DNA of 64,000 bases from K189A clade bacterium. GTDB taxonomy: Bacteria; Pseudomonadota; Gammaproteobacteria; Pseudomonadales; Azotimanducaceae. Made by a program: the position numbers and the translations under genes. Positions 12,281-22,161 of the stretch are shown piece by piece. The notes beneath the pieces are model-generated. The model worked only from the letters and a program-made list of their open reading frames with translations, was not told where the DNA came from and did no database searches. How positions within the stretch are numbered: the first letter of the stretch is position 1; each line of letters starts with the position of its first letter. Location of the stretch: positions 1-64,000 of the forward strand of contig CACOYI010000005.1 of the NCBI GenBank assembly GCA_902631405.1. The letters are read 5' to 3'.

Positions 12281-12303
12281 AAAAAGGGCGCTTTAGGCGC
12301 CCT
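12281..12303 (-). terminator. rho-independent terminator after hupB
   Basis: Read on the minus strand, AGGGCGC-CTAAA-GCGCCCT forms a seven-base-pair GC-rich stem with a five-base loop, followed directly by TTTTT. It sits about 25 bases after the hupB stop and before ppiD, so it should end most hupB transcripts and uncouple ppiD. Confidence 0.85.
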
Positions 12304-12327
12304 CTTACGGATCAAACTGGGTGATTC

Positions 12328-12600
12328 CTAGTTCAATGCGTCTTTCAAGGCTTTACCAGGTTTGAACGCTGGCACTTTCGCCGCCGCTATTTTGATAGCC
12401 GCACCAGTCGCAGGATTTCGACCGTCTCTAGCAGCACGCTCTCTCACCAAAAATGTACCAAACCCAACCAAAGAAACCGATTCCGCATTCTGTAAAGATC
12501 CCGAGATCGCGTTTAGCGTAGCATCTAAAGCTCTACCCGCATCAGCCTTGGAAATATCTGCGGAGGCCGCTATCTTGTCAATCAGTTCACCTTTATTCAC
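12328..12600 (-). CDS. hupB: nucleoid protein HU, beta-type
   Basis: HU is a small histone-like protein that bends and compacts DNA. The start is the GTG at 12600, not the upstream ORF-track start: AAGGGG lies six bases before it and the resulting 90-residue protein begins [25 protein letters not shown], aligning exactly with HU. The DNA-binding arm is seen in [25 protein letters not shown] and the C-terminus in [15 protein letters not shown]. It lies between lon and ppiD as in other Gammaproteobacteria, with its own promoter and terminator. The leader holds a long inverted repeat described separately. Confidence 0.96.
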
Positions 12601-12629
12601 ATTAACCCCTTTTTTTTGTTTCAAAACGC

Positions 12630-12662
12630 TTTCGATATTTACCACTCCCTCAAATATCGAAA
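12630..12662. repeat. perfect 11-bp inverted repeat in hupB leader
   Basis: TTTCGATATTT and AAATATCGAAA are exact reverse complements separated by 11 bases. The repeat lies between the predicted hupB promoter (12681-12709) and the hupB ribosome site, so it would form a hairpin in the hupB mRNA leader or serve as a protein-binding operator. It has no U-run and so is not a typical terminator. Confidence 0.7.
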
Positions 12663-12680
12663 CCCCATCGTGACCCTAGT

Positions 12681-12709
12681 TTTATACCAATACAGTGGGT
12701 CCTAAGCAA
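12681..12709 (-). promoter_or_regulatory. predicted sigma-70 promoter of hupB
   Basis: On the minus strand TTGCTT and TATAAA are separated by exactly 17 bases, close to the consensus -35 and -10. It lies just before the end of lon and would give a leader of roughly 75 bases for hupB. Confidence 0.6.
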
Positions 12710-12737
12710 GCTAACTTATTCCGTGAGATCGCTTGAT

Positions 12738-15191
12738 TTAATGCGTGCTCGCTGACTCTGTTTTGGGCGTCTCTTTCCTTCTGCTACTTCCTCTTTTTTC
12801 AGTGGCATCCTTCTTTTTGTCAGGTATTATGGATTTAGGAGAAGTGACCAAGGCTAATTCAAATATCTCCTCTATCCATTTGACGGATATGATCTCTAGA
12901 TTCGCCACAACATTTGAGGGGATTTCTTTTAAATCCTTCTCATTTTCTTTCGAAATTAGAACACGCTTAATTCCGCCACGATGCGCGGCCAACAGTTTTT
13001 CCTTCAAACCACCTATCGGCAAGACTTGTCCTCTTAAGTTGATTTCACCCGTCATAGCCACATCTGAGCGAACCGGAATATCAGTCACAGCAGACACAAG
13101 CGCCGTGCACATCCCAATTCCTGCGCTCGGTCCATCCTTGGGTGTAGCGCCTTCAGGAACATGCACGTGTAAGTCGTGCTCGTCAAAGTAATTTAAATCA
13201 ATCCCTAAGGACTCACTCCTACTCCTCACAACGGTGAGGGCCGCTTGAATTGACTCCTGCATGACATCACCAAGAGAGCCTGTTCGAATCTGTTTTCCCT
13301 TGCCTGGAACGGCTACAGCTTCGATATTCAGAAGCTCGCCACCCACCTGTGTCCAGGCCAGCCCCGTGACTACGCCGACACGGTCTTCTGCGTCCGCCAG
13401 ACCATATTTAAACCTCTGGACACCATTGTACTTTTCGATACTCTTTGAACTTATTCGGGTGGCTCCAACTAGTTTCCTTCTGCGACCTTCTTTGGGCAGT
13501 ACTTTCTCTCGCAGAGCAATTTCCGTAACTAATTTCCTCGTGACCTTGGCGATTTCCCTCTCCAGGTTCCTCACACCCGCTTCCCTTGTGTAATGCCTGA
13601 TAAGGTCTAGAATCGCCCCATCTGACATTTTTACCCGTTTAGCCTCTAATCCGTTATTTTCGAGCTGCTTTGGCAGTAAGTACCGGCGGGCGATGTTCAA
13701 CTTCTCTGCTTCCGTGTAACCGGGCAGACGAATCACTTCCATTCGGTCGAGCAACGCTGGCGGGATATTCATAGAATTTGAGGTGCAGACAAAGAAAACG
13801 TCTGATAAATCGAAATCTACTTCCAAATAATGATCGTTGAAGCTGGAATTTTGTTCGGGATCGAGTACTTCTAGTAAGGCGCTCGCAGGATCACCGCGCA
13901 TATCCATACCCATTTTATCAATTTCATCTAGAAGGAAGAGCGGGTTCGACACTTCGGCTTTGGAGATTTTTTGAATAACCTTCCCTGGCATCGATCCTAT
14001 ATAAGTTTTCCTATGGCCCCTTATTTCTGCTTCATCTCTAACACCTCCTAATGCCATTCTCAGGAATTTCCGGTTAGTTGCCCGCGCAATACTCTTCCCC
14101 AGACTGGTCTTCCCCACCCCGGGCGGTCCAACCAGGCACAGAATTGGCCCCTTCGTTTTTTTAACTCGGTTTTGGACAGCAAGATATTCAACGATCCTTT
14201 CCTTTACGTCCTCGAGTCCGTAATGATCTTCATCCAAAACTTGCTGCGCCGAAAGAATATCCTTTCTAACCCGACTCTTCTTGCCCCAAGGCAATCCCAC
14301 CAACCAATCGAGGTAGCCCCTGACGACCGTCGCCTCCGCCGACATCGGGGCCATATTCTTTAATTTTTTGAGCTCAGCCGTGGCCTTGGATTCAGCTTCC
14401 TTGGGCATCTTCGAAGATTGTATTTTTTCGCTCAGCTCATCGATTTCGCTGACAGAATCATCTCCCATTTCCTTTTGGATAGCTTTGATTTGTTCGTTTA
14501 GATAATAGTCCTTCTGACTACGTTCCATCTGTTCCTTGACGCGGCTTCTGATTCGACTATCAACCTTCTGCAGATCCAACTCGGCCTCCAGCAAGGAGAG
14601 CACAGCGTCCACGCGCTCTCTTTTGGGAATCGTTTCCAACAGCCTCTGTTTGTCAGCGAGGTCTACGAATATTTGAGTCGCAATGCTATCAACCATCCTG
14701 GAAAGACTATCTATCGCAGAGAGGGAGGAGACTATCTCTTGCGGTATTTTCTTTCCTCCTTTTGCATATTTCTCAAATTGTTCGAGCAAAAGCTTTATTA
14801 GCCCTTCCTCATCCGATAACTGCGCCTCGTCATCTTCAACGACGCTCAGATTAGCCCGGATGAAGTCCTCCGAGAGCATGTACTTTTCTACTCTCGCACG
14901 AGATTGTCCCTCGACTAAAATTTTGACGGTACCGTCGGGAAGCTTAAGCAATTGAAGGATGCGCGCGACTGATCCAAACTGATAAAGATCGTTTTCCTGA
15001 GTTATCTGCTCCTCGGCATATTTTTTCGCCACCAGGAAGATAACTTTATCTAGAGACATCGCCTCATCAAGCGCCCTGATCGAGCTTTCCGTTCCCACAA
15101 ATAAAGGATGAACTCCGTGAGGGAAAACCACCATATCTCTTAGTGGCAGAACCGGGATCTCACTTTCTGTCCTGAATGTTGTTTCGCCCAT
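12738..15191 (-). CDS. lon: ATP-dependent protease Lon
   Basis: Lon is a cytoplasmic AAA+ serine protease that degrades misfolded and regulatory proteins. The ATG at 15191 is chosen because GGAGG lies eight bases before it; the ORF-track TTG six bases upstream is less likely. The 817-residue protein has the LAN domain (IPVLPLRDMVVFP), a coiled linker, the AAA+ module (GPPGVGKTSLGKSIA, then PLFLLDEIDKM), and the protease domain with catalytic Ser in PKDGPSAGIGMCTAL and Lys in IGGLKEKLLAAHRGG. The last 30 or so residues form a charged extension (KKKDATEKRGSSRRK). It sits between clpX and hupB. Confidence 0.97.
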   Translation of the reverse strand: MGETTFRTESEIPVLPLRDMVVFPHGVHPLFVGTESSIRALDEAMSLDKVIFLVAKKYAEEQITQENDLYQFGSVARILQLLKLPDGTVKILVEGQSRARVEKYMLSEDFIRANLSVVEDDEAQLSDEEGLIKLLLEQFEKYAKGGKKIPQEIVSSLSAIDSLSRMVDSIATQIFVDLADKQRLLETIPKRERVDAVLSLLEAELDLQKVDSRIRSRVKEQMERSQKDYYLNEQIKAIQKEMGDDSVSEIDELSEKIQSSKMPKEAESKATAELKKLKNMAPMSAEATVVRGYLDWLVGLPWGKKSRVRKDILSAQQVLDEDHYGLEDVKERIVEYLAVQNRVKKTKGPILCLVGPPGVGKTSLGKSIARATNRKFLRMALGGVRDEAEIRGHRKTYIGSMPGKVIQKISKAEVSNPLFLLDEIDKMGMDMRGDPASALLEVLDPEQNSSFNDHYLEVDFDLSDVFFVCTSNSMNIPPALLDRMEVIRLPGYTEAEKLNIARRYLLPKQLENNGLEAKRVKMSDGAILDLIRHYTREAGVRNLEREIAKVTRKLVTEIALREKVLPKEGRRRKLVGATRISSKSIEKYNGVQRFKYGLADAEDRVGVVTGLAWTQVGGELLNIEAVAVPGKGKQIRTGSLGDVMQESIQAALTVVRSRSESLGIDLNYFDEHDLHVHVPEGATPKDGPSAGIGMCTALVSAVTDIPVRSDVAMTGEINLRGQVLPIGGLKEKLLAAHRGGIKRVLISKENEKDLKEIPSNVVANLEIISVKWIEEIFELALVTSPKSIIPDKKKDATEKRGSSRRKETPKTESASTH

Positions 15192-18811: not shown

Positions 18812-20194
18812 TCAGGTAAGCAACCCTTCTCGTTCGAAATCTGATTCTTCCTTTCTGATATAGATTCTAAGCCAATAAAACGCCACCACGGAAGATAAGA
18901 TCATGGCTATCGCGCCACCGATAAAAATACCCGGAAAACCAAATAAATAATTGCCCAAAACAGCTAACGGCAAAGATACAAATATGGTTTGGACAACAGA
19001 AATAATCAGCGGCGGTTTTGGTTGACCCAATGCGTTAAAGCTATTCGTACTGTTGGACAACACACCCATAAAGCCAATACTGATCGGCGCAATCAATAAG
19101 TAGATAAAAGCTGCCTCTACCACGTTAGAGTCATTGTTGACTGCGGCCACCGCAAACGGCCCAAGACCCGCTAGGACAATGAAAGAAAGAAGCCCCCAAC
19201 CGAGTGCGAAAAAATGAGCGGTTCTCAAAGATTTTCGCACTCGACCAAATTCGTTTGCTCCCCAATTTTGTCCCACGAATGGGGCGATACTCATGGATAA
19301 CGCCCAGATAACCATCGCTAGCATCGTTTCTATCCGTGAGGCCAAGCTAAAACCAGCTACGAAAGCAGTCCCATGACCCGCGATCAACCGCGTAATTATG
19401 CTGAACGACAATGGACCGATAAGGTTAGAGGCAATCGCGGGCAAGCCGACATGAAATATGTCCCTGCAAGATGAGAGGAACCCTGTCAGCTGCCCCACTA
19501 TTAGTCGATCCACATAGATATAGTAGATGTATAACAAGAAACCGAAGAAGCGAGCCACCACAAATCCAAGAGCCGCGCCTAGTAAGCCCAATTCCGGGGC
19601 ACCCCCCAAGCCAAAAATAAAGATAGGCCCGCAGAGTATCTGCAGAGCCGCCCCTACGACCATCAAATAACCTGGTTTCTTGACGTCGCCTGCTGATCTC
19701 ATCAATTGTGACCCCACCATCGCTATCGAAAAAAAAGGTAATCCAAGAAACCAGACCTGCATATATTCGACCGCTAGCGGTAAAGCTTTCCCTCCTGCGC
19801 CCAACAATCGAAACAGACTCTCCAAGTTAGGGAATAAGACAATGGCAATAAATGAAACGAAGATTATCGTCAGTAAGAGGCTATGGGTCAGAATGATTTT
19901 TGCTTTGGCGTGGTCATTAGCTCCAATGCTTCTCGCGACGACGGAAGAAGCCCCAACCGCCAACCCCATTGACATGCTCTGCATCAGCATGACCAAAGGG
20001 AACGTGAAGCCCAAAGCCGCAAGCTCAAGAGTACCTACAAATCCAATATAGACGGATTCAGCTAAGTTTGCCGCCATGACCGCCACCAGCCCAAGGACCA
20101 TAAATCCGGTCAGTCTGAGTAGGTGCTGTGTTTCAGAGCCTTTGGTTAAGTCTCTGGAGCCTGAAAAGCTTGACTCACTTGATCCTTCGCTAAT
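18812..20194 (-). CDS. MATE family efflux transporter, probable ATT start
   Basis: This is a multidrug and toxin extrusion transporter, a cation-coupled exporter with 12 predicted membrane segments. The ORF track begins inside the first segment (20101). The open frame upstream encodes DLTKGSETQHLLRLTGFMVLG, which matches the normal MATE N-terminus. No ATG, GTG or TTG occurs between that N-terminus and the preceding stop. The best start is ATT at 20194 (MSEGSSES...), with AAGGA five bases upstream, giving 460 residues. The ATT may be a real weak start or an ATG altered by a base change or sequence error. Confidence 0.85.
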   Translation of the reverse strand: MSEGSSESSFSGSRDLTKGSETQHLLRLTGFMVLGLVAVMAANLAESVYIGFVGTLELAALGFTFPLVMLMQSMSMGLAVGASSVVARSIGANDHAKAKIILTHSLLLTIIFVSFIAIVLFPNLESLFRLLGAGGKALPLAVEYMQVWFLGLPFFSIAMVGSQLMRSAGDVKKPGYLMVVGAALQILCGPIFIFGLGGAPELGLLGAALGFVVARFFGFLLYIYYIYVDRLIVGQLTGFLSSCRDIFHVGLPAIASNLIGPLSFSIITRLIAGHGTAFVAGFSLASRIETMLAMVIWALSMSIAPFVGQNWGANEFGRVRKSLRTAHFFALGWGLLSFIVLAGLGPFAVAAVNNDSNVVEAAFIYLLIAPISIGFMGVLSNSTNSFNALGQPKPPLIISVVQTIFVSLPLAVLGNYLFGFPGIFIGGAIAMILSSVVAFYWLRIYIRKEESDFEREGLLT

Positions 20195-21900: not shown

Positions 21901-21942
21901 CCATCACCAGTCACCAGTCACCAGTCACCAGTCACCAGTCAA
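21901..21942. repeat. tandem heptamer repeat, unit CAGTCAC, six copies
   Basis: Six consecutive seven-base units read CATCAC-type first copy, then four exact CAGTCAC copies, then CAGTCAA. The array starts about 30 bases upstream of the MFS start codon, between it and the Fur-like box. Being non-coding, a copy-number change would alter promoter-to-gene spacing by seven bases. Confidence 0.9.
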
Positions 21943-22018
21943 TCTAGGGTCTTAGCAAGCTACGATGGAGTCAAGACAAAGAATACGTATTGAGAGGAAG
22001 AATTTAAACGCAATTATA

Positions 22019-22037
22019 AATGAGAATCATTTGCATT
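22019..22037. promoter_or_regulatory. Fur-box-like sequence
   Basis: AATGAGAATCATTTGCATT is AT-rich and partly palindromic. By hand alignment it matches 13 of 19 positions of the E. coli Fur consensus GATAATGATAATCATTATC. It lies in the 289-base gap between the MFS start and the crotonase stop, about 150 bases upstream of the MFS gene. The gap otherwise holds only the heptamer array and AT-rich promoter-like sequence. Confidence 0.4.
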
Positions 22038-22161
22038 TATAATTAGTCCATGTATTATGTAACTGTCTCTGCTCATACAGGACCTGCTCAGCTTCGAAGA
22101 GATTAGACCCCTCCGATAAGCGAGTTACCACCAATACCGCCTGTTGTGAGCAGAGACCACT

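Follow-up and report, generated by a model that had tools for sequence, protein, structure and literature searches.

In the window, the 64,000-nucleotide stretch of DNA that was analysed and that comes from an uncultured bacterium, the gene hupB encoding HU-beta (90 amino acids) occupies positions 12328-12600 of the minus strand and follows lon, which ends at 12738 immediately upstream of the hupB promoter, in agreement with the customary gammaproteobacterial gene order clpX-lon-hupB. HU counts as one of the most abundant proteins that pack DNA, and its dosage matters. The best NCBIfam model for the gene product is HU-beta PRK10664 (E 6e-39, 132 bits), with a score below the curated cut-off of 157. 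The GTG start codon at 12600 has been set by alignment with relatives and by a TAA that closes the frame upstream of it in the sister species (genome G022), and it is preceded at a distance of 5 nt by the Shine-Dalgarno sequence AGGGG (12606-12610, minus strand), which is identical in the sister. The hupB promoter (12681-12709, minus strand) consists of TTGCTT at 12709-12704 and, after 17 nt, the extended -10 element TGG-TATAAA with its hexamer at 12686-12681; this element reads TTGGTATAAA and its -10 is nearly invariant across the relatives of the genus, while the promoter is missing from a formal promoter scan because its -35 is poor. As judged from the -10, transcription would start near 12674, within a segment (12663-12677, minus strand) that contains GATGGGG, and the leader would therefore be about 74 nt long, with the stem described below beginning about 12 nt in. 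No terminator-like site was found between lon and hupB (12300-12900 searched), so that read-through transcripts from lon may also carry the leader structure.

Between promoter and ribosome site lies an inverted repeat, TTTCGATATTT-N11-AAATATCGAAA, at 12630-12662 of the minus strand. Its 5' arm TTTCGATATTT (12652-12662, minus strand) and its 3' arm AAATATCGAAA (12630-12640, minus strand), both seen in the sequence, in the repeat search and in the RNA fold, are 100% complementary over 11 nt each and enclose an 11-nt gap (12641-12651, minus strand) with the inner loop AGGGAGTGG in the RNA fold. The sequence-only reading, whose range of 12630-12709 spans the promoter plus the repeat, had described an exact 11-bp inverted repeat located between promoter and ribosome site, and both statements hold, as the order on the minus strand is promoter with TATAAA at 12686-12681, repeat, AGGGG at 12610-12606 and hupB. 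With arms of at least 11 nt and gaps of 3-25 nt, three perfect repeats occur in the 64 kb window, and about 0.33 per 64 kb are expected from first-order Markov simulations of matched make-up. These counts bear in both directions on the view that the repeat has arisen by chance and is without function, inherited by two sister species in a short leader that changes slowly overall: that the window holds two further perfect repeats of about this size is in its favour, yet with so few expected, one has fallen into a leader of only about 74 nt.

In the 1.6 Mb draft genome, the hupB-leader repeat occurs as a single copy even if up to three mismatches are allowed, which rules out a mobile or otherwise repeated element. 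Elsewhere in the window, another perfect repeat of 11 bp with 11 nt between its arms, AATTATAAATG-AGAATCATTTG-CATTTATAATT, is located in an intergenic region at 22012-22044 and resembles a Fur box (GAGAATCATTTGCATT); the same intergenic region holds a short CACCAGT tandem repeat at 21906-21942. Positions 19201-19243 hold an inverted repeat, CGAGTGCGAAAA, that is perfect over 12 bp and has a gap of 19 nt.

On the RNA level, the repeat is predicted to fold into an AU-rich hairpin of 12 bp, in which G12651 and T12641 provide a twelfth pair (G-U in the RNA) that closes a purine-rich 9-nt loop, AGGGAGUGG. Together with short flanks, the hairpin has a predicted folding energy of -12.2 kcal/mol with a z score of -5.2, none of the shuffled sequences being equally stable, and it stays the dominant element when the wider leader is folded. 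For the region from -66 to -26, the z score equals -5.2 in the window's genome (G000) and -3.9 in the sister. Between -40 and the start codon, the RNA was found to be no more structured than its shuffles, leaving the ribosome site open. Direct translational masking is thus unlikely, since the ribosome site is situated outside the hairpin, and masking of this site has been dismissed as a mechanism, with the region unstructured and the stem ending 29 nt before the hupB start codon. The sequence-only reading had also denied the repeat to be a terminator, which is borne out: an intrinsic terminator or attenuator can be rejected as the stem is AU-rich, lacks a U run and is followed by GCGUUUUG, and no terminator-like site was detected. 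A longer HU that begins at GTG 12645 and reads across the repeat would have an open frame in the window, but has been rejected because of the in-frame TAA in the sister species. Searching the Rfam families returned no covariance-model match above the gathering score near hupB.

A search among 40 genomes of the genus recovered an alignable hupB leader only in the sister species (94% identity over 135 bases), the sole close relative, which carries the hairpin as well. Between the two genomes, the promoter is unchanged (0/30) and the leader differs at 6 of 80 positions (7.5%), the changes affecting 1 of the 22 arm bases and 5 of the 58 non-arm leader bases; the corresponding figures are 41/223 for the end of lon and 7/27 for the spacer between lon and promoter. 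Divergence at fourfold sites amounts to 0.35 in hupB, 0.38 in clpX and 0.44 in lon, and with this range of 0.35-0.44 approximately 8-10 changes would be predicted in the 22 arm bases if these were neutral, so that the binomial probability of observing at most one is about 0.001 or lower, which argues against a functionless repeat. On the other hand, conservation is not clearly higher in the arms than in the other leader bases, including the flanks, and the constraint therefore pertains to the leader and not to the stem specifically, as would be consistent with a chance origin.

The nature of the changes adds to this comparison. The 24 paired bases show two substitutions in the sister species, each of which keeps the RNA pair: an A to G exchange in the 3' arm converts A-U to G-U and breaks the DNA dyad, and a G to A exchange in the closing pair converts G-U to A-U. 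The chance that both substitutions keep their pairs is estimated at roughly 1 in 5, and the 9-nt loop is identical. Pairing preserved by both changes speaks against a repeat without function and, from the comparison of two sequences, speaks weakly for an RNA element rather than an operator. The sequence-only reading had proposed to examine related leaders for conservation of the repeat and for compensatory stem changes. Both stem changes keep a pair, and conservation was found in part: the one relative with a conserved leader carries the repeat, and members whose leaders cannot be aligned past the promoter lack it. That the repeat is missing from every other leader examined in the genus is in favour of a chance origin, which is considered unlikely on the whole but is the strongest of the competing explanations.

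The proposal that the repeat would either fold in the mRNA or bind a dimeric protein can be divided, with mRNA folding (z about -5, kept in the sister) finding support and operator control finding none. In the latter case, a dimeric regulator would contact both arms, whose centres are 22 bp and thus two helical turns apart, and control the hupB promoter; the perfect dyad, both arms of which face the same side of the helix, is in favour of this. The site is, however, wholly downstream of the predicted transcription start, inside the predicted transcribed leader, no regulator gene is linked to it, and the change in the sister disrupts the dyad yet keeps the RNA pairing. Six exact copies of the arm are present in the genome, two in the hupB repeat and four inside open reading frames. 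No other promoter carries the half-site among these genome-wide exact copies, which dismisses an operator regulon while being still compatible with a regulator dedicated to hupB. Control by a DNA-binding dimer is thus regarded as improbable.

The conserved loop brings in a different type of partner. An RNA-binding protein or a small RNA might read the purine-rich loop AGGGAGUGG and thereby regulate translation or decay of hupB mRNA; in fact, the loop sequence is the same in both species and harbours a CsrA-type ANGGA core, and the HU-alpha mRNA of Salmonella is under post-transcriptional control by the ProQ-dependent small RNA RaiZ (PMC5391140). Against this stands that no match to CsrA (PF02599) was obtained in the window's genome (73% complete) or in the sister (93% complete), although CsrA was found in 11 other genomes of the genus, and a CsrA target has been rejected on this ground. 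RaiZ, for its part, represses hupA mRNA at its ribosome site and not through a leader hairpin, with the Salmonella hupB reporter unaffected (PMC5391140). A control of the hupB leader by such a partner would resemble the RaiZ/ProQ-hupA system as post-transcriptional control of an HU subunit via the 5' region, but differ from it in that the small RNA pairs with the hupA ribosome site, whereas the window's hairpin is positioned upstream of the hupB site and its partner is putative. Recognition of the loop is therefore judged quite improbable. The distribution of CsrA itself is uneven, the 11 of 40 genus genomes with the protein, in up to four copies, being mostly larger ones and the 29 of 40 without a match mostly smaller ones.

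A different structure is observed in the remaining genus. The 31 hupB leaders examined comprise those of the window's genome, the sister and 29 others, and the 12-bp hairpin repeat is absent from all 29, none of which can be aligned past the promoter. In at least 21 of the 25 others with a recognised -10, the predicted 5' end of the hupB mRNA, just past the -10, forms a hairpin with a loop of 4 nt (for example, L013, L016, L123 and L125), composed of about 6 bp with a GC-rich core and a loop that is often GNRA, directly at the predicted start of transcription. The stems show covarying pairs: in 21 arm pairs, the pairs 3-6 counted from the loop are formed more often than with re-dealt 3' arms, with a p value of 0.0002 for pairs 4-6 together, to be read with the relatedness of the sequences uncorrected and the loop position picked by eye. 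Shuffling of each sequence gave a combined p of 0.002 for the 5'-terminal stretch, and two control regions showed no signal. The corresponding place reads CACGATGGGG in the window and CTCGATGGGG in the sister; in the alignment, the GATGGGG segment (12663-12677) appears to match the 3' half of the hairpin that the other members have at the 5' end, and the CACGATGGGG stretch looks like a decayed copy of that hairpin, directly followed by the 12-bp hairpin. It is thus plausible that one leader hairpin has taken the place of another in the window's lineage. Both kinds of hairpin occur early in the hupB leader and follow the same extended -10 promoter, but the one in the window is AU-rich, with 12 bp and a 9-nt loop, and sits about 12 nt deeper in the leader. 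The further-reaching interpretation that hupB mRNAs of the genus carry a dedicated, selected 5' hairpin, which has decayed here and been replaced by the AU-rich one, is regarded as doubtful; if true, HU dosage would be set by a leader element not described before, the structure of which undergoes functional turnover. Beyond the genus, named hupB leaders (Alcanivorax, Neptuniibacter, Pseudomonas and others) have nothing in common except the TGGTATAAA promoter, their hairpins being scattered and unrelated.

The explanation preferred here, to which we assign about an even chance, is an RNA stem-loop in the hupB 5' untranslated region that is specific to the window species and its sister and acts as a structural element of the leader. 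Stem-loops at the 5' end that stabilise the mRNA have been described for E. coli ompA, Acinetobacter recA and Helicobacter vacA (PMC7509114). Like the ompA type, the hairpin in the window is stable, situated in the 5' untranslated region and upstream of the ribosome site without covering it. Unlike the ompA type, its stem is located about 12 nt from the predicted transcription start and not at the mRNA end, a distance that exceeds that of the best-known protective 5' stem-loops, and it is AU-rich and without homology, with a putative effect on half-life. By analogy with ompA, the hairpin might shield the 5' part of the hupB mRNA against RNase E-type attack or hold the A-rich ribosome-loading stretch open, and it would stand in for the short tetraloop hairpin that has presumably decayed in this lineage. 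An effect on hupB mRNA stability or on an open ribosome-loading stretch is the most likely of the conceivable functions.

The leader hairpin is a real and fairly ordinary mRNA leader structure of a known kind with a putative role, and no report of a hupB leader hairpin was found in the literature searched. It would provide a simple post-transcriptional setting of HU dosage separate from the upstream lon and can for now be seen as a small, plausible regulatory detail, still putative, for the testing of which the genus supplies natural hairpin variants. Among the leaders of the genus, a subclade with L027, L030 and L031 displays a 5'-end hairpin followed by 7-8 T, a terminator-like arrangement directly at the hupB promoter.
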